NCBI RefSeq assembly: GCF_024171725.1
Contig: NZ_JAMTCG010000003.1
Coordinates: forward strand, 310,001 to 374,000
DNA length: 64,000 bases
Source of the DNA: Williamsia serinedens
GTDB taxonomy: Bacteria; Actinomycetota; Actinomycetes; Mycobacteriales; Mycobacteriaceae
Reading direction: 5' to 3'
The notes beneath the pieces are model-generated. The model was not told the origin of the DNA, did no database searches, and saw only the letters and a list, made by a program, of their open reading frames with translations. Shown one piece after another: positions 25,952-34,035 of the stretch. The position numbers and the translations under genes were made by a program. Position 1 is the stretch's first letter. Every line of letters starts with the position of its first letter.

Positions 25952-26236
25952 TCAGCCGACCGCGATGTCCGAGGGGTGCGTCGCCAGCGGGGTGACGTCG
26001 ATGGTCATGTACGGGAACAGCGGGAGATTCCAGAGGATGTCGTGCAGGCGCTCGTTGTCGGCGACGTCGAAGATGCTCAGGTTCGAGTACTGGCCGACGC
26101 GCCGCCAGATGCTGACCCACTCCCCTGCCCGCTGCAGGTCCTGCGAGTAGGTCTTCTCCCGGGCGAGGGTGTCGGCGCGGACCTCCGGATCCATGTCCGT
26201 GGGCAGCGCGACATCCATCGTGACCGCGAAGAGCAT
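25952..26236 (-). CDS. catC: Muconolactone delta-isomerase
   Basis: A 94-residue enzyme that converts muconolactone to beta-ketoadipate enol-lactone in the catechol branch. The start MLFAVTMDVALP, the REKTYSQDLQRAGEW core and the NLPLFPYMTIDVTPLATHPSD tail are the family pattern, and the length is normal. The ATG overlaps the catA stop (ATGA), so the two are co-translated. Confidence 0.95.
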   Translation of the reverse strand: MLFAVTMDVALPTDMDPEVRADTLAREKTYSQDLQRAGEWVSIWRRVGQYSNLSIFDVADNERLHDILWNLPLFPYMTIDVTPLATHPSDIAVG

Positions 26237-27087
26237 CAGCTCGTCGCCTCGCGGTCGAGGACGAAGTCGTAGGTGACCTGCTGGCCGCCGTCGATGTCCT
26301 GCGGGTCCAGGACGAGTTCCGGCTTCACGGCGCTGGCGACGTCGTCGTCGTTGTGCGGGTCGCCGGGGAAGTAGAGCTGCGTGGTGATCTGCTGACAGCC
26401 CTGCGCGCCGACTTTGAGGTGCAGGTGCGCGGGGCGCCACGGGTGCCAGCCGGCGGCCGAGATCAGCTTGCCGCAGGCGCCGTCCGTCGGGATCTGGTAC
26501 GGCGCGGGCTTCATCGTGTGGATGTGGAAGCGGCCGTCGGCATCTGCGGTGACCGTGCCGCGCAGGTTCCACTCCGGGATCCCCGGCGCGAACTGCGAGT
26601 AGAAGCCGTCGGCGTCGGCGTGCCAGATCTCCAGCGTCGCACCCGAGAGCGGCGTGCCGTCGACGGAACGGACCTGACCCTCGAACAGCAGCGGGGTGCC
26701 CTGCTCACCGTCGCGCGTGGGAAGCCATGCCTCCGAACCCAGTTCGGGCGCCTCCGGAACGTAGTAGGGCCCCTCGATGGTGCCCTTGCTGCCGTCCCGC
26801 GATTCGCTGGCCACCTCCTCGACGACGTGCTCGACCCACACGTCGAGGAACAGCGGCCACTCGCCGTCCTGGCCGACCTGGATCAGCCACGACTTGAGGG
26901 CGTTGTACTCGTCGTAGGTGACCTGGTGGTCGCGGATGGTCGCGTGCACCGCGGACAACACCTCGCGGGCGAGCATGCTCACCCGCTCGGGCGGCGTGTC
27001 GGCGACGACCCGCTTGTCGGTCGCGAACCGTTGCGTGGCGTTGGCGCCGGACGCCGCCGCGGTGGCGACGCTCTCGTCGACGGTCAT
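26236..27087 (-). CDS. catA: Catechol 1,2-dioxygenase
   Basis: A cytoplasmic intradiol dioxygenase of 283 residues that opens catechol to cis,cis-muconate with non-haem Fe(III). An N-terminal helical dimerisation domain precedes the beta-sandwich. The expected iron ligands are visible as Y163 (GFYSQF), Y197 (APYQIP), H221 and H223 (PAHLHLKV). It lies between catB (52-bp gap) and catC (ATGA overlap) in the usual actinobacterial order. Confidence 0.97.
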   Translation of the reverse strand: MTVDESVATAAASGANATQRFATDKRVVADTPPERVSMLAREVLSAVHATIRDHQVTYDEYNALKSWLIQVGQDGEWPLFLDVWVEHVVEEVASESRDGSKGTIEGPYYVPEAPELGSEAWLPTRDGEQGTPLLFEGQVRSVDGTPLSGATLEIWHADADGFYSQFAPGIPEWNLRGTVTADADGRFHIHTMKPAPYQIPTDGACGKLISAAGWHPWRPAHLHLKVGAQGCQQITTQLYFPGDPHNDDDVASAVKPELVLDPQDIDGGQQVTYDFVLDREATS

Positions 27088-27139: not shown

Positions 27140-28243
27140 TCAGCGGTCTATGCGATAGGCCGCGAGCTTGTCGGGATCGATCTCGACCCCGAGGCCGGGT
27201 CCCGGGGGCACGGCGAGCTCGCCGTCCTGGATCGTCAGCGGCTCGACGAGCAGGTCGTCGGACATGTCGAGGAAGTTCGACAGCTCGCCCGCCCGCCGCG
27301 AGGTCGAGGCGAACGCTGCGCCGAACGCGACGGTGCAGGCCGTCCCGAGCTGTCCGTCGATCTGATTGCCCATCACGACGTCGACGCCGAGGCCCTCGCA
27401 GAGGTGGTGGACGCGCACCGAGCCGGTGAAGCCGGTGCGGGCGGTCTTGATCGACACCGCGGTGGCCGACCCGCCGAGGATCTCCCGGGTCACCTCCGCC
27501 GGCGTGGTGGCCGACTCGTCGGCGACGAACGGGACGCCGAGGCGCTGCACGAGCCAACGCCGGGACACGACGTCGTCGGCGGGACAGAGCTCCTCGGCGA
27601 GGGTGAGGCCCAGATCGGCCATCTCGTCCATCGCGCGGGCGGACTCCGCGGCCGTCCATCCCCGGTTGCCGTCGACGTAGAGCTCGATGCCGTCGCCGAG
27701 GCCGTCCCGCAGCGCGCGGACGACAGCGGTGTCGAGCTCGACCGGCCGGCGCCCGACCTTGACCTTGAACACGGTGATGCCGTGGGTGTCCCGCATGCGG
27801 ATCGCCTCGTCGACCATGGCCTCCGGGGTCTCGAACCCGAGCATGTGGCTGACGCGCATCCGGTCGGTGTGGCCGCCGAGCAGGTCGCCGACGGACAGGT
27901 CGAGGTTGCGTCCCAGCGCATCCCACATCGCCATGTCGACGGCGGACTTCGCGACCGGGTTGCCGACGGTGCGCTCGAGGCGCGCCCGGACGGTCTCCCG
28001 CTCGAGCAGCGTGGTCCCGACGATCTGCTCGGCGAAGAGGTCCTCGATCACCGCGACGACGCCGCGCTGGGTCTCCCCGTAGGTGAACGGACGCGGCGGT
28101 GCGTCCGCGACACCGACCACCCCGTCGTCGGTGTGGACCCGGACCAGCACGTGGTCGGCGGCGTGCACCTCACCGCTGGCGAACCGCAGCGGCTTACGAT
28201 ACGGGATCCGGTACGGGATCGCCTCGACGCGCGTGATCTTCAT
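27140..28243 (-). CDS. catB: Muconate cycloisomerase
   Basis: A 367-residue enolase-superfamily enzyme that lactonises cis,cis-muconate to muconolactone. The N-terminal capping domain precedes the barrel with the base motif KVK (VFKVKVG), metal ligands in YVDGNRGW and LAEELCP, and a second Lys region (ISIKTARTGF). ATG 28243 follows GGAGGACAT and overlaps the stop of the LysR gene (ATGA). Confidence 0.95.
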   Translation of the reverse strand: MKITRVEAIPYRIPYRKPLRFASGEVHAADHVLVRVHTDDGVVGVADAPPRPFTYGETQRGVVAVIEDLFAEQIVGTTLLERETVRARLERTVGNPVAKSAVDMAMWDALGRNLDLSVGDLLGGHTDRMRVSHMLGFETPEAMVDEAIRMRDTHGITVFKVKVGRRPVELDTAVVRALRDGLGDGIELYVDGNRGWTAAESARAMDEMADLGLTLAEELCPADDVVSRRWLVQRLGVPFVADESATTPAEVTREILGGSATAVSIKTARTGFTGSVRVHHLCEGLGVDVVMGNQIDGQLGTACTVAFGAAFASTSRRAGELSNFLDMSDDLLVEPLTIQDGELAVPPGPGLGVEIDPDKLAAYRIDR

Positions 28244-29205
28244 CGGATGTCCTCCAGGGTGTCGGCGGATCCGACGATCCACTCGTCGGGCAGGTCGGCA
28301 GGTGAGGGATCCGACGGCGAGACGGGGACGATGCCCGCGTCGCGGAGCACCGCGAGCAACGATTCGACCTGGGCCGAGCGCCGGTCACGCGACCAGGCGA
28401 CCGCGAGGTCGATGGTCTCGGCACCGTCGAGGTCACGCAGGACGACCCCGTCCAGGGTCAGTCGGCGGACGGACTCCGGGACGATCGCGACCCCGAGGCC
28501 CGCGGCGACGAGGGCGAGCAGTACCGCGGTGCCGGGCGCCTCGTGTGCGCGACGAGGTGCGAAACCCGCTGCCCGACAACTGCGGACGACGGCGTCGTTG
28601 ACCGCAGAGTGCGCGTCGGAGTACAGGACGAAGTCGTCGTGGGCGAGGTCGGCGACGCTCAGCGCCGGCTCGCCGGCGAGGCGGTGGTCGGCGGGCAGGG
28701 CGAGGACGAGCGACTCCGTCTTGAGGATGCGGGTCTCGATGTCGTCGCCGGCCACCGGCGGACGCAGCACGGCGACGTCGAGGTCACCGGAGCGCAGCGC
28801 CTCTACCTGGGCGGGGGTGAGCAGGTCGCCGTGGATCTCGAGCGACAGGGTGGGCAGGCGCGTGCCCGCGGCGCGGGCGATGGCGGGGAGCTGGTCGAAG
28901 GCCGCGGTGCCGGTGAAGCCGATCCGGACGAGGCCCGTCCGGCCGTCGGCGATGCGCCGGACGCCCTCGACGCCGCGCTCGAGTCCGCCGATCATGCGCT
29001 GCGCCTCGGCGCGGAAGAACTCGCCGGCAGGGGTCAGGGTCACGGACCGCGTCGTACGGGAGAACAGGGTGACGCCGAGCTCGTCCTCGAGCTGGCGGAT
29101 CGCCTGCGACAACGCAGGCTGCGCGACGTGCAGCCGCTGGGCGGCGCGGCCGAAGTGACAGGTGTCGGCGACGGCCACGAAGTACCGCAGGTGCCGCAGC
29201 TCCAT
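28240..29205 (-). CDS. catR: LysR-family regulator of the catechol genes
   Basis: A 321-residue LysR-type regulator. The winged helix-turn-helix at 1-65 (HFGRAAQRLHVAQPALSQAIRQLEDELG) is followed by an effector-binding domain that would sense muconate or benzoate. ATG 29205 was chosen for GGAAGGAGG just upstream. Unlike the common divergent layout, it is the first gene of the catRBAC transcript, overlapping catB by ATGA, while benA is the divergent neighbour. It may therefore control both sides from the 29206-29406 region. Confidence 0.88.
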   Translation of the reverse strand: MELRHLRYFVAVADTCHFGRAAQRLHVAQPALSQAIRQLEDELGVTLFSRTTRSVTLTPAGEFFRAEAQRMIGGLERGVEGVRRIADGRTGLVRIGFTGTAAFDQLPAIARAAGTRLPTLSLEIHGDLLTPAQVEALRSGDLDVAVLRPPVAGDDIETRILKTESLVLALPADHRLAGEPALSVADLAHDDFVLYSDAHSAVNDAVVRSCRAAGFAPRRAHEAPGTAVLLALVAAGLGVAIVPESVRRLTLDGVVLRDLDGAETIDLAVAWSRDRRSAQVESLLAVLRDAGIVPVSPSDPSPADLPDEWIVGSADTLEDIR

Positions 29206-29287
29206 CGCCGCCTCCTTCCGCGTCGCGGTGACGCCGTTCACAGTATGGTGCCGACTCTTTGCGCACAAAGACGTAAATACATTGGAT

Positions 29288-29406: not shown

Positions 29407-30759
29407 ATGACCGCGACGACGGATCACCTGCGCAGCACCCTCGACACCGCGGTGGTCGAGGACCCCGAGGCCGGCCTCTACCGGGCCAATCGCCGGATCT
29501 TCACCGACGAGGAGGTCTTCGAACTCGAGATGCGGCACATCTTCGAGGGCAACTGGATCTACCTCGCCCACGAGAGCCAGGTCGCGAACCCCGGTGACTA
29601 CTTCACCACCTACATGGGGCGGCAGCCCGTCGTCATCACCCGCGACAAGGAGGGGGAGCTGCACTGCCTGATCAACGCGTGCGCCCACCGCGGCGCGATG
29701 ATCTGTCGTCGCAAGACCGACAACCGCTCGACGCTCACCTGCCCGTTCCACGGGTGGACGTTCCGCAACGACGGGACGCTGCTCAAGGTGAAGGACCCTG
29801 AGGGCGCGGGCTATCCCGAGTCGTTCAACTCGGGTGGGTCGCACGACATGACGAAGGTGCCGCAGTTCGGCAGCTACCGCGGCTTCCTGTTCGGCAGCCT
29901 GAACGCCGACGTCGTCACGCTCGCGGAGCACCTCGGTGACACGACGAAGGTCATCGACATGCTCGTCGACCAGTCCCCCGAGGGACTGGAGGTGCTCCGC
30001 GGGTCGTCGACGTACACCTTCGACGGCAACTGGAAGGTGCAGGCGGAGAACGGCGCCGACGGCTACCACGTCACCGCGACGCACTGGAACTACGCGGCCA
30101 CCACCTCACGCCGGAACAACGGCGAGTCGACGAACACGACCAAGGCGCTCGACGCCGGCGGGTGGGGCAAGTCGGGCGGCGGTTACTGGTCGTACCCGAA
30201 CGGCCATCTCTGCCTGTGGACCTGGGCGGCCAACCCGCAGGACCGCCCGCTGTGGGACCAGATGGACGCGCTCAAGGAGCAGTTCGGTGACGCCAAGGGC
30301 GAGTTCATGGTCAAGGGTTCTCGCAACCTGTGCCTCTACCCGAACGTCTACCTGATGGACCAGTTCAGCACGCAGATCCGGCATTTCCGCCCGATCGCGC
30401 CGGACAAGACCGAGGTCACCATCTACTGCATCGCGCCCAAGGGCGAGAGCGCGCAGGCCCGGTCGCACCGGATCCGCCAATACGAGGATTTCTTCAACGC
30501 GTCGGGCATGGCCACACCCGACGACCTCGAGGAGTTCCGCTCCTGCCAGTTGACGTTCCAGGCGTCGACCGCCCCGTGGAACGACATGAGCCGCGGCGCC
30601 GAACACTGGCTCACCGGACCCGATCCGGTCGCCGAGGCCCTCGACATGCCCGGCGTCATCTCCGCCGGCGTCAAGAACGAGGACGAGGGACTGTTCACCG
30701 TCCAGCACGGGTACTGGCGGTCGACGCTGCTGGCCGCCGTCGAGAACGAGGAGAAGTGA
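29407..30759 (+). CDS. benA: Benzoate 1,2-dioxygenase large subunit
   Basis: The 450-residue alpha subunit of the ring-hydroxylating oxygenase that turns benzoate into the cis-1,2-dihydrodiol carboxylate. The Rieske [2Fe-2S] ligands are C92, H94, C112 and H115. Mononuclear iron ligands H221 and H226 are seen in GADGYHVTATHW. ATG 29407 follows CTGGAGG. benB begins one base after its stop. The gene is divergent from catR. Confidence 0.97.
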   Translation: MTATTDHLRSTLDTAVVEDPEAGLYRANRRIFTDEEVFELEMRHIFEGNWIYLAHESQVANPGDYFTTYMGRQPVVITRDKEGELHCLINACAHRGAMICRRKTDNRSTLTCPFHGWTFRNDGTLLKVKDPEGAGYPESFNSGGSHDMTKVPQFGSYRGFLFGSLNADVVTLAEHLGDTTKVIDMLVDQSPEGLEVLRGSSTYTFDGNWKVQAENGADGYHVTATHWNYAATTSRRNNGESTNTTKALDAGGWGKSGGGYWSYPNGHLCLWTWAANPQDRPLWDQMDALKEQFGDAKGEFMVKGSRNLCLYPNVYLMDQFSTQIRHFRPIAPDKTEVTIYCIAPKGESAQARSHRIRQYEDFFNASGMATPDDLEEFRSCQLTFQASTAPWNDMSRGAEHWLTGPDPVAEALDMPGVISAGVKNEDEGLFTVQHGYWRSTLLAAVENEEK

Positions 30760-30760
30760 C

Positions 30761-31294
30761 GTGACCACCACCGAACCCCGGCCCGCAGCAACCGAGACCC
30801 GCATGCCGATCACCCAGAACGCCATCGAGCAGTTCCTCTACCGCGAGGCCCGCTACCTCGACGACCGTGAGTTCGAGAAGTGGCTCTCCTGCTACGCCGA
30901 CGACGTCGAGTACTGGATGCCGAGTTGGGGCGACGACGACCGGCTGACCGAGGACCCGCAGACCGACATCTCCCTCATCTACTACCCGAACAAGGGTGGG
31001 CTCGAGGACCGGGTGTTCCGCATCCGCACCGAACGATCCAGTGCCACCTCCATCCCCGAACCGCGGACGAGCCACAACATCAGCAACGTCGAGGTTATCG
31101 AGCGGCGCGGCGACATCGTCGACGTCCGATTCAACTGGCACACCATGTATTTCCGGTACAAGACGATCGACCCGTACTACGGCACGTCGTTCTACACCAT
31201 CGACTTCTCCGGCGAGTCCCCCCTGATCCGCCGCAAGACCGTGGTGCTCAAGAACGACTACATCCACCACGTCGTCGACGTGTACCACTTCTGA
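30761..31294 (+). CDS. benB: Benzoate 1,2-dioxygenase small subunit
   Basis: The 177-residue beta subunit, which shapes the oxygenase hexamer. AIEQFLYREARYLDDREFEKWLSCYADD and SHNISNVEV are the usual motifs. GTG 30761 has GAGGAGAAG at the right distance, while an internal ATG at 30803 is less well placed. It lies between benA and the fused reductase-dehydrogenase gene. Confidence 0.95.
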   Translation: MTTTEPRPAATETRMPITQNAIEQFLYREARYLDDREFEKWLSCYADDVEYWMPSWGDDDRLTEDPQTDISLIYYPNKGGLEDRVFRIRTERSSATSIPEPRTSHNISNVEVIERRGDIVDVRFNWHTMYFRYKTIDPYYGTSFYTIDFSGESPLIRRKTVVLKNDYIHHVVDVYHF

Positions 31295-31311: not shown

Positions 31312-34035
31312 ATGAGTCACCGCGTCGCGCTGTCCTTCGAGGACGGTGTCACCCGCTTCATCACGTGCGAGCCCGGACAGACCGTCGCCGACGCCGCCTA
31401 CCGCGCACGGATCAACATCCCGCTCGACTGTCGCGACGGCGCCTGCGGGACGTGCAAGGCGCAGTGCGAATCCGGTGAGTACGACGGCGGGCACTACATC
31501 GACGACGCGCTGACCGCCGGCGAGGCCGCCGACGGGTTCTGTCTGCCCTGCAGCATGACCCCGTCGTCAGATCTGGTGCTGCAGATCGCGAGCACGTCGG
31601 CCGTCGCCAAGACGCAGGCGGCAACCCACACGACGACGGTCACGGCCGTCGACCGTCTGTCACCGACGACGGTACGGCTGGCCGTCGCGGCGCCTGCCGG
31701 CGCCGGGATCGCCTTCCTGCCCGGCCAGTACGTGAACATCGCGGTCCCGGGCAGCGACGAGACGCGCTCGTACTCGTTCAGTTGCCCGTCGGGGTCGGAC
31801 GAACTGGAGTTCCTCATCAAGCTGATCCCCGGCGGGCTCATGTCGCGCTGGCTCGACACCGCGGCGGTCGGCGACGAGATCTCGTTCACGGGGCCGAACG
31901 GCAGCTTCTTCCTCCGCGAGGCCGAGCGCCCGGCGCTGTTGCTCGCCGGCGGGACCGGCCTCGCGCCGGTGCTCTCGATCCTGCGGACGCTGGCCCGTGA
32001 CGGCAACCCGCGTCCCGTGCATCTCGTCTACGGCGTCAGCACCGACGACGACCTCGTCGAGCTGGACACCCTGGAGGAGCTCACCACGACGCTGTCGTCG
32101 TTTACGTTCGAGTTCTGCGTGTCGGACCCGAACACCACTGCGGCGCATCGGGGCCACGTGACGAGCCTGATCCATCCCGAGCACCTGAACGACGGTGACG
32201 TCGCCATCTACCTGTGCGGCCCGCCGCCCATGGTCGAGTCGGTGCGCGCGCACCTCGCCGACCGGGACGTGGAGCCGACCGGCTTCTACTACGAGAAGTT
32301 CGCGCCCTCGTCGGCGGCGGCACCCGTCGTCGAGGACGACACCGAGTCCCCGGCGGAGAACGCCGCGCCGCCCATGGAGGTCGGCGAGACCGAGACCGAG
32401 GCCGCACCCACCGTCGCACCGACGGTGATCACACACGCGGCCGACAGCGACGGGCTGCTGATCGTGGCCGACGGTGTCGTACGGAGGGTGGCCGGACAGG
32501 ACGTCTTCCCCGGCCGTGACGTCGCCGGCGTCGCCGCGCACGCATCTGCCCCTGCCGACGAGGCGACGACGATGCGGAGGATCGCCGGCCAGGTCGTCGG
32601 ACACGTCGGCTCCGACGCCGATCCCGCACCGATCGATCCCGACGGCCCGATCGTCGACGCACCCGAAGCCCGTTCCGTCGCCGGACAGCAGATGTGGCCC
32701 GACCGCGACATCGCTCCCCTCGTCGACCGACCGGACATCGCTGCAGCAGAACACGGATCGCCGGTGACCGGCTACGAGATCGGCGAGGAACATCCGTCGG
32801 TCCACGAGTCCGACGCGGTGTTCGAGGCGCGGCGCGCCCTGGAACTGGGGGCGCTCGAACTGGTCATCGGCCGCATGTCGTCGCAGGCGATCGCCGGGTA
32901 CCGGCTCCTCGCCGACGTCACGACGCGCTATGTCGACGGCGACCGTTTCGTCGACGCGGCCGCCTACACCGAGACCAACGCCGCGTTCCACGATTACCTG
33001 TTCACCCAGACCGGGAACGAGCATCTTCTGCAGGCCTATCGGGCGCTCGGCGTCAAGGCCGCGATGGCCGAGACGCTGCGCAACGCCACCTGGTGCGACC
33101 CGTCGTGCGCCCAGGATCACCTCGACATCGTCGACGCCATCGAGGCGCAGGATCGGGAGCGCGCGCGGACGCTGATCGCCGACCACGCCGAGCGCTCGAA
33201 GATCACCATGCGACGCGCGATGCAGGACACCGCCGCGAGCAAGCGTCCGGCGTTCGTGAGTCCCGGCCGGTTCGCGGGCAAGGTCGTCGTCGTGACCGGC
33301 GCCGCCCAGGGCATCGGCGAGTGGGTCGCCCGACGGATCGCCGCCGAGAGCGGCACACTCGTCCTCGCCGACCGGTCCGAACTCGTCGAGTCCTTCGCGC
33401 AGGAGCTCTCCGCGGAGACCACCGCGACGGGTGTGATGGCCGACCTCGAGACCTGGGACGGCGCTGCGAAGGTCGTCGACGCGGCGATCGCCGAGCACGG
33501 TCGGGTGGACGTCGCCATCCACGTCGTCGGCGGCACCATCTGGGCCAAGCCGTTCGCCGAGTACCCGCCCGAACAGATCGAGAAGGAGCTGTCTCGGTCG
33601 CTCTACCCGACGCTGTGGTCGTGCCGCGCCGTCATCGGACCGATGATCGAGCAGGGCTCGGGCACCATCGTGAACGTCTCCTCGGTCGCGACGCGGGGCG
33701 TCCATCGGGTGCCCTACGCCGCCGCGAAGGGTGGCGTCAACGCGATCACGTCGGCGCTCGCCCTCGAAGGGGCTCCCCACGGGGTGCGCGTCGTCGCGAC
33801 CGCACCCGGCGGGACCGACGCCCCACCGCGGCGCATCCCCCGGGGTCCGGCGCCGCAGACAGATAAGGAGAAGGCCTGGTATCAGGCCCTCGTCGACCAG
33901 ACGGTCGAGTCGTCCCTGTTGAAGCGCTACGGCACGCTCGACGAGCAAGCCGCTGCGATCTGCTTCCTCGCTTCGGACGAGGCGTCCTACATCACCGGCA
34001 CGGTGCTGCCGGTCGCCGGCGGGGACCTCGGCTGA
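31312..34035 (+). CDS. benC-benD: BenC-FCD-BenD triple fusion: reductase, FCD domain and diol dehydrogenase
   Basis: A 907-residue fusion. Residues 1-95 are a plant-type ferredoxin domain (C40, C45, C48, C80). Residues 105-335 are an FAD/NAD reductase (RSYSFS, GGTGLAPV, CGPPPMV), together BenC. Residues 340-500 are a linker with three degenerate units (RRVAGQDVFPGRDVA, RRIAGQVVG, RSVAGQQMWPDRDIA). Residues 500-645 are an FCD domain, normally the effector-binding half of GntR regulators, with its metal-site residues H560, H603 and H625 but no DNA-binding domain. Residues 652-907 are BenD (TGAAQGIGE, Y802-x3-K806), the SDR that makes catechol. ATG 31312 follows GGGAGGCGG. Confidence 0.92.
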   Translation: MSHRVALSFEDGVTRFITCEPGQTVADAAYRARINIPLDCRDGACGTCKAQCESGEYDGGHYIDDALTAGEAADGFCLPCSMTPSSDLVLQIASTSAVAKTQAATHTTTVTAVDRLSPTTVRLAVAAPAGAGIAFLPGQYVNIAVPGSDETRSYSFSCPSGSDELEFLIKLIPGGLMSRWLDTAAVGDEISFTGPNGSFFLREAERPALLLAGGTGLAPVLSILRTLARDGNPRPVHLVYGVSTDDDLVELDTLEELTTTLSSFTFEFCVSDPNTTAAHRGHVTSLIHPEHLNDGDVAIYLCGPPPMVESVRAHLADRDVEPTGFYYEKFAPSSAAAPVVEDDTESPAENAAPPMEVGETETEAAPTVAPTVITHAADSDGLLIVADGVVRRVAGQDVFPGRDVAGVAAHASAPADEATTMRRIAGQVVGHVGSDADPAPIDPDGPIVDAPEARSVAGQQMWPDRDIAPLVDRPDIAAAEHGSPVTGYEIGEEHPSVHESDAVFEARRALELGALELVIGRMSSQAIAGYRLLADVTTRYVDGDRFVDAAAYTETNAAFHDYLFTQTGNEHLLQAYRALGVKAAMAETLRNATWCDPSCAQDHLDIVDAIEAQDRERARTLIADHAERSKITMRRAMQDTAASKRPAFVSPGRFAGKVVVVTGAAQGIGEWVARRIAAESGTLVLADRSELVESFAQELSAETTATGVMADLETWDGAAKVVDAAIAEHGRVDVAIHVVGGTIWAKPFAEYPPEQIEKELSRSLYPTLWSCRAVIGPMIEQGSGTIVNVSSVATRGVHRVPYAAAKGGVNAITSALALEGAPHGVRVVATAPGGTDAPPRRIPRGPAPQTDKEKAWYQALVDQTVESSLLKRYGTLDEQAAAICFLASDEASYITGTVLPVAGGDLG

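Follow-up and report, generated by a model that had tools for sequence, protein, structure and literature searches.

What is a domain of transcriptional regulators doing between two enzymes of benzoate oxidation? The question is raised by a gene in a 64,000-nucleotide stretch of the Williamsia serinedens genome (contig NZ_JAMTCG010000003.1, positions 310,001 to 374,000; the window), which joins the dioxygenase reductase BenC, an FCD domain, and the diol dehydrogenase BenD in one frame. Our comparisons indicate that the FCD domain belongs to the reductase and is present even where BenD is separate. As to its role, we lean slightly toward a sensor free of any DNA-binding part, through which an acid of the pathway would control the flow of electrons from NADH.

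Architecture of the fusion protein

The fusion gene is an uninterrupted frame of 907 residues that opens with an ATG, preceded by a GGGAGG stretch (Table 1). Pfam places Fer2 (residues 10 to 84), FAD_binding_6 (109 to 199), and NAD_binding_1 (210 to 312) in the BenC part, followed by FCD (PF07729; 503 to 627, at 59.8 bits with a cutoff of 24.3) and adh_short (657 to 838). The two enzyme parts pass the NCBIfam equivalog cutoffs for BenC (NF040810, 479 bits versus 430) and BenD (NF040811, 412.8 bits versus 380). The original prediction, a single 907-residue frame running BenC, linker, FCD, and BenD, is thus borne out by reading frame, Pfam, and NCBIfam. It also described the FCD domain as lacking a DNA-binding part, and we found no Pfam match to the GntR helix-turn-helix (PF00392) at an E-value limit of 1, a range in which HMMER filters drop most matches above 0.1. 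By score and by its predicted all-helical fold the domain is an FCD domain; the protein lacks the N-terminal winged helix-turn-helix of GntR regulators and falls outside that family. A Protein Data Bank (PDB) sequence search with the domain gave weak matches only (best E value, 0.16), and the fold search was clear.

In an alignment of 60 three-part proteins (the window and 59 of the 80 named-genome loci described below), C40, C45, C48, and C80 of BenC are invariant, which we take to be the iron-sulfur ligands. S790, Y802, and K806 of BenD, presumably the catalytic triad of this short-chain dehydrogenase/reductase (SDR), are invariant as well, as are Y488, I490, G491, H494, and P495. A search of the window's genome found no further BenC or BenD, the next SDR and the next reductase by score being 39% and 32% identical; therefore, a working pathway would require the fused protein to perform both reactions. 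The full-length predicted model has a mean predicted local distance difference test score (pLDDT) of 76 and a predicted template modeling score of 0.60. It does not fix the placement of the domains, and its BenC part aligns to PDB structure 1krh only at a root mean square deviation of 11.3.

Distribution of the fusion

A scan of named genomes confirmed 112 loci, and the best 80 were kept by match to the whole query, a ranking that favors three-part proteins. All 80 carry the benC-FCD-benD frame, so we rejected both a sequencing or assembly error and a fusion unique to the window's strain. The genera include Rhodococcus, Gordonia, Mycolicibacterium, Nocardia, Amycolatopsis, Saccharopolyspora, Kribbella, Nocardioides, Knoellia, Enemella, and Kitasatospora. 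The three-part protein of Williamsia maris (L035) is 80 to 81% identical to the window protein; its coordinates show that L035 and G003, the other member of the genus, are one genome, and the two therefore do not count as two witnesses.

In a family sample of 251 genomes, 86 passed a BenC threshold of 1e-55, and removal of five distant ones (36 to 38% identity) left 81. The FCD domain lies in the BenC frame in 74 of these, 39 with frames of at least 850 residues and 35 with shorter frames. The other seven comprise two genomes with FCD on another contig, two with genes cut near a contig end, and three in which FCD is truly absent (G022, G030, and G072). The 77th FCD genome of the family search, G173, proved to hold a GntR regulator. 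In a class sample of 394 genomes, the BenC search passed at 20 places in 19 genomes; BenC was close (at least 57% identity) in 13, and FCD was present in all of those but G567 (12 of 13). The family, class, and named-genome samples overlap, and seven of the 13 class genomes are also in the family sample.

Distant BenC-type reductases (36 to 39% identity) also occur in this family in frames of 850 to 930 residues (L183, L184, L185, and L195). We set these aside; the two scanned with Pfam (L184 and L185) contain no FCD, and the remainder of their frames weakly resembles an FAD-dependent oxidoreductase.

Fourteen loci with shorter frames were read (L165 to L170, L174 to L179, L188, and L194), 13 of them from the 35 shorter-frame cases of the family sample. 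All encode BenC-FCD and are followed immediately by benD. In each of the 14 loci the benC-FCD stop codon overlaps a possible start of benD, in 13 as ATGA or GTGA, which makes fusion a short step. Ten of the two-part linkers span 27 to 54 residues, too short to hold a winged helix-turn-helix; the other four, all from one genus, span 204 to 217.

FCD domains on other oxygenase reductases

A search of 72,556 plasmid records returned six FCD matches at 1e-8, namely, one Tsukamurella three-part protein and five Paraburkholderia plasmids. The latter encode a 929-residue protein composed of a BenC-type reductase (507 bits on the BenC model; cutoff, 430), an FCD domain, and a cytochrome P450, matched at full length with 90 to 100% identity in all five records. 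By its sequence this is a P450 that carries its own reductase, with a putative sensor domain between the two. It is labeled only BenC in one record, and the Tsukamurella protein likewise is plain BenC. Its P450 domain passed no NCBIfam cutoff, the best solved relatives being P450s of mixed function, and one copy (L234) is flanked by genes for an FAD oxidoreductase, an SDR, and a regulator of the AraC type.

In a phylum sample of 396 genomes, 12 had FCD matches at 1e-8, which were Ben proteins in four and other proteins in eight. Outside the Ben proteins, the top three matches (69.6, 65.4, and 54.5 bits; L218, L219, and L220) are flavin reductase-FCD proteins, and they outscore all GntR regulators listed for that sample (best, 45.8 bits). 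L219 retains a recognizable GntR domain between its two parts in one frame, suggesting an origin in which a reductase joined a whole regulator and the DNA-binding part was then lost; it may represent a transitional form, or it may genuinely combine both functions. Another flavin reductase-FCD protein, L233, adjoins a luciferase-like monooxygenase, and a Dietzia plasmid encodes a further relative (41% over most of the query). Two GntR regulators that fall among the reductase FCDs in the tree (L222 and L225) adjoin methylmalonyl-coenzyme A (CoA) mutase and give no ligand clue. Judged by these architectures, the FCD domain recurs on reductases of three oxygenase types: Rieske, P450, and flavin monooxygenase.

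Order of joining

In a reductase tree of 50 rows (20 of the 85 three-part rows, with seven distant rows dropped), the FCD-bearing reductases form one clade (support, 93/91) in which four FCD-less reductases are nested, with the P450 fusion as the sister group of the actinobacterial BenCs. The tree requires the presence of FCD to change five times, which we read, with moderate support, as one gain and four losses. An FCD-loss comparison that preceded this tree used 43 of the 85 three-part rows with five distant rows dropped. The BenD fusion forms one clade (100/98) with a single nested loss, L186, in the mycobacterial part of the tree. The L186 BenC (L186:3563-4786, minus strand) has no FCD and ends in an RCIAGQ linker remnant, which we read as FCD loss and not a primitive state; its benD is a separate gene overlapping the BenC gene. 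This locus is thus best described, from its sequence, as a fission of the three-part fusion. No separate FCD turned up near the FCD-less benC genes in a six-frame profile search that covered L180, L181, L182, and L186 as well as three proteobacterial loci (best E value, 2).

The FCD tree (51 rows) groups the Ben and P450 FCDs in one clade (88/88) and joins them with the flavin-reductase FCDs and two GntRs in another (87/95). An earlier FCD tree without P450 rows (19 of the 84 three-part FCDs, with L171 and L172 dropped) placed the Ben FCDs in one clade (98/95) and did not reject a clade of Ben and flavin-reductase FCDs (P = 0.58); the 51-row tree additionally dropped four long-branch GntRs. 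The outgroup is not one side of a branch in the reductase tree or in either FCD tree. The reductase and FCD trees agree, with moderate support. They suggest, again with moderate support, that FCD joined the reductase first and that BenD was added later in one clade.

Constraint on the FCD domain and the linker

Site residues and linkers were counted in 84 three-part rows (the window, the 80 named loci, L189, L191, and L192; L191 and L090 are probably one genome). N556, H560, H603, and H625 are kept in every row. In the 16 two-part rows (the 14 read loci and contig fragments L171 and L172), the three histidines are kept in all and the asparagine in 15. The three metal-site histidines that had been predicted do align. 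Invariant residues are scattered across the whole domain. Cys595 is present in 84 and Cys599 in 83 of the 84 three-part rows, replaced by V/I in two-part rows and by I/I in three P450 rows; this pair, in the motif WCxPxC, is a possible thiol switch. The ratio of nonsynonymous to synonymous substitution rates (dN/dS) was lowest in the FCD domain in six of six comparisons (0.05 to 0.17), compared with 0.11 to 0.25 for BenC, 0.11 to 0.25 for BenD, and 0.28 to 0.67 for the linker, the ratios being rough as some dS values are large, reaching 2.0 in the linker. By this measure, the FCD domain is the most constrained part of the fusion protein.

The linker is only 33 to 43% identical in these six comparisons, and it holds the three RxVAGQ-type units that had been noted earlier. 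The unit consensus is A-R-x-I/V-A-G-Q-x-V/M-F/L-P, and three-part linkers contain 0 to 5 [AMC]GQ cores (three in 34 of 84, none in 6). The pattern R.[VIL][AMC]GQ matched 149 times in the 84 linkers, at least once in 72; over 500 shuffles, the linkers gave 0.05 matches on average and never more than 1, so the units are not due to chance. The 14 two-part linkers gave zero matches. In the predicted model, confidence in the units is slightly higher than at the beginning of the linker, yet still low. They resemble short docking motifs carried by a flexible tether, and they are not essential, because some three-part members have none. The long linkers of L168 and L169 (212 to 217 residues) carry an IAARPVGF-like stretch, with variations, three times, which looks like an independent set of docking motifs.

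A proposed sensor on the reductase and its alternatives

Because the FCD domain follows the reductase into Rieske and P450 systems and has relatives on flavin-monooxygenase reductases, it is best read as serving the reductase. This recurrence, together with the precedent of the MarR domain of AbHpaC (see below), leads us to propose that a substrate or product acid gates electron entry. The FCD domain would descend from the effector half of a GntR-type regulator, would have shed the DNA-binding half, and would now serve as a regulatory module of an oxygenase reductase. When no pathway acid is present, the FCD domain would keep the BenC part poorly active or wrongly placed. A pathway carboxylate, benzoate first and otherwise the cis-diol or muconate, would bind the Asn/His/His/His site, probably via a metal. 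The FCD domain would then move, allowing electrons to pass from NADH to FAD, the 2Fe-2S center, and the Rieske center of BenA. Such gating would save NADH and avoid peroxide when substrate is lacking. In the three-part clade, BenD may sit in an oligomer of its own, with the long linker giving BenC the reach to contact BenAB; local recycling of NADH may be a side benefit of the later attachment of BenD, one that is not needed. We infer the metal, the ligand, the gating with its direction of control, and the purpose of the domain. A broader idea, which we hold with rather less than even confidence, is that one FCD lineage is a portable gating module: having lost its DNA-binding half, it would have joined ferredoxin-type (BenC) and flavin-type (HpaC-like) reductases and would control electron supply to three unrelated classes of oxygenase (Rieske dioxygenase, cytochrome P450, and flavin monooxygenase) according to the substrate acid.

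The original prediction had offered two roles for the FCD domain, a built-in effector sensor and a scaffold that channels the diol. The sensor role fared better, given the strong constraint, the three conserved histidines, and the occurrence on reductases in several settings. For the scaffold, the FCD domain and linker would hold BenC and BenD together so that NADH is reused and the unstable diol passed on, with no effector bound. Both enzymes do share one frame in all 80 kept loci, in a scan that favors such frames, and the gene overlap in the 14 two-part loci leaves fusion only a short step away. However, reductase-FCD proteins without BenD are common (35 of 74), and this role is weakened because FCD came before BenD. 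A spacer would not need the conserved site residues, and the long, poorly predicted tether makes an unlikely channel. We consider a scaffold improbable as the shared role and conceivable as an added function in the three-part form. An oligomerization, docking, or stability module has somewhat better prospects, although we still think it unlikely; here, the FCD domain would form dimers that position reductases on the oxygenase, and any metal would be structural. FCD domains contribute to dimers in GntR regulators, and the spread of invariant residues over the whole domain would fit. The title of PDB entry 5tpm, "C-terminal Dimerization Domain," points the same way. This explanation leaves a ligand-sensing fold on reductases of three oxygenase types unaccounted for. 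Moreover, SDRs of the BenD kind are commonly oligomers already.

We give little credence to a metal or redox sensor that detects iron or zinc, or thiol state through Cys595 and Cys599 in the three-part form, and slows electron entry under stress. The cysteine pair is nearly invariant among three-part rows, but it is absent from the two-part and P450 FCDs examined and so cannot be the shared function. Least credible is a relic of gene joining without function; the repeated losses would suit it, but purifying constraint on the domain is the strongest of all parts, and FCD is in frame in 74 of the 81 close-BenC family genomes, three of the other seven truly lacking it.

Several observations weigh against the gating sensor we favor. 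At least four lineages (L180, L181, L182, and L186) have lost the FCD domain while retaining benABCD, so the domain is dispensable somewhere, and close BenC occurs in only two of eight genomes of the window's genus. The fourth metal-site residue of textbook FCD domains is Asp, replaced here by Asn556, as also in some GntR FCDs of the comparison (L196 and L222 to L225); all four site residues are kept in only three of five flavin-reductase FCDs. The latter proteins are rare (L233 was the single match to an L219 query among 296 class genomes at 1e-40), no oxygenase was seen among the few neighbors scanned near L218 and L220, and the Dietzia relative adjoins CoA-pathway genes. Support values in the trees are moderate, a number of the FCD branches are long, and few GntR regulators were sampled. 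We found no ligand, metal, or kinetic evidence for these reductase-FCD proteins, and conservation of the FCD domain would be expected just as well of a module for dimer formation or stability.

Uncoupled electron transfer, which wastes NADH and makes peroxide, limits Rieske oxygenases and P450s in nature and biotechnology. If the gating proposal is true, a compact substrate-sensing reductase switch would explain how some bacteria avoid electron waste, and the switch might be transplanted to other oxygenase systems. A portable module, if true, would have been hidden behind database names such as plain "BenC" or "flavin reductase." The reductase FCDs would then show a route from regulator effector domain to enzyme regulator.

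Genomic setting

The genes around the fusion are predicted to cover most steps from benzoate to central metabolism. In addition to those in Table 1, they include a muconolactone isomerase frame that scores just below its cutoff (130.0 versus 130.6), a PcaR-type regulator, a thiolase, and both subunits of 3-oxoacid CoA-transferase. The large putative regulator downstream of the fusion had no NCBIfam match at 1e-10; its position matches that of a "helix-turn-helix transcriptional regulator" in Tsukamurella and of a LuxR-type gene in Gordonia (PMC6362181).

Table 1. Coordinates of the fusion gene, its parts, its neighbors, and related fusions (window positions unless a locus is named)
Feature	Position	Strand	Remarks
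benC-FCD-benD fusion gene	31312..34035	+	907 residues
BenC reductase, residues 3-333	31318..32310	+	2Fe-2S (Cys40, 45, 48, 80), FAD and NAD domains
Variable linker, residues 334-486	32311..32769	+	By identity, dN/dS, mostly low pLDDT
RRVAGQ unit 1, residues 391-396	32482..32499	+	
RRIAGQ unit 2, residues 422-427	32575..32592	+	
RSVAGQ unit 3, residues 454-459	32671..32688	+	
Conserved YEIGEEH stretch	32773..32793	+	Directly N-terminal of FCD; invariant residues in alignment of 60
FCD domain without winged helix-turn-helix, residues 487-640	32770..33231	+	Asn556, His560, His603, His625; Cys595/Cys599 pair
WCxPxC, residues 594-599	33091-33108		
BenD, benzoate diol dehydrogenase (SDR), residues 651-907	33262..34032	+	Ser790, Tyr802, Lys806; NF040811
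benA, oxygenase large subunit	29407..30759	+	TIGR03229, 795 bits, cutoff 781
benB, oxygenase small subunit	30803..31294	+	TIGR03232, 271 bits, cutoff 226
catA, catechol 1,2-dioxygenase	26236..27087	-	TIGR02438, 484 bits, cutoff 404
catB-like muconate cycloisomerase	27140..28282	-	Best match TIGR02534, 202 bits, below cutoff 335
LysR-type regulator	28240..29268	-	
Large putative regulator, 901 residues	34089..36794	+	Directly downstream of fusion gene; LuxR-type by comparison only
Reductase-FCD-P450, Paraburkholderia plasmids read	L234:3984-6773, L235:2984-5773, L236:2984-5773		
Flavin reductase-GntR-FCD, L219	5102-6331	-	
hpaB (4-hydroxyphenylacetate hydroxylase oxygenase), L219	3607-5058	-	L219 fusion directly upstream

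Comparison with known systems

The fusion architecture is already known. As far as we have seen, the new elements are how widely it occurs, the order in which its parts joined, the parallels among P450 and flavin-reductase fusions, and the interpretation as a gate. A benC-FCD-benD fusion is stated in print for one strain, Gordonia alkanivorans YC-RL2, by authors who describe FCD as characteristic of GntR regulators (PMC6362181, 2019). That strain has the same fusion and the same kinds of neighboring regulator (LysR and LuxR) as the window; unlike the present analysis, the excerpts of that account give no function, distribution, or origin for the FCD domain. In Rhodococcus sp. strain TG-1, benC is listed as an "FCD domain-containing protein," so that its BenC carries FCD by label, as here, and benD is separate, unlike in the window; the excerpted study measured expression only (PMC11858498). 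A published function for FCD in benC fusions, or for FCD-flavin reductases, was not found in openly licensed PMC papers, which is a weak absence.

Proteobacterial BenABCD systems have the same enzymes in the same gene order as the window. In the records examined, however, their benC is a separate gene of about 340 residues without FCD, followed by a separate benD. Compared with the FCD-containing GntR regulators TM0439, CGL2915, DhdR, and Atu1419, the fusion protein differs in having no winged helix-turn-helix, Asn in place of Asp, and fused enzymes.

The closest functional parallel we propose is AbHpaC, the reductase of the Acinetobacter baumannii 4-hydroxyphenylacetate 3-hydroxylase (PDB structure 5zc2). 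It is likewise an oxygenase reductase with a transcription-factor-type effector domain at its C terminus, and the BenC-FCD proteins share with AbHpaC-type effector-gated oxygenase reductases the placement of an effector domain on the reductase. The C-terminal MarR domain of AbHpaC is reported to be self-inhibitory, an inhibition relieved when the substrate, 4-hydroxyphenylacetate, binds and raises flavin reduction at least 30-fold (PMC10816480). AbHpaC thus pairs a flavin reductase with a MarR domain whose gating was shown experimentally, whereas the protein described here pairs a ferredoxin-type BenC with an FCD domain and is known from sequence.

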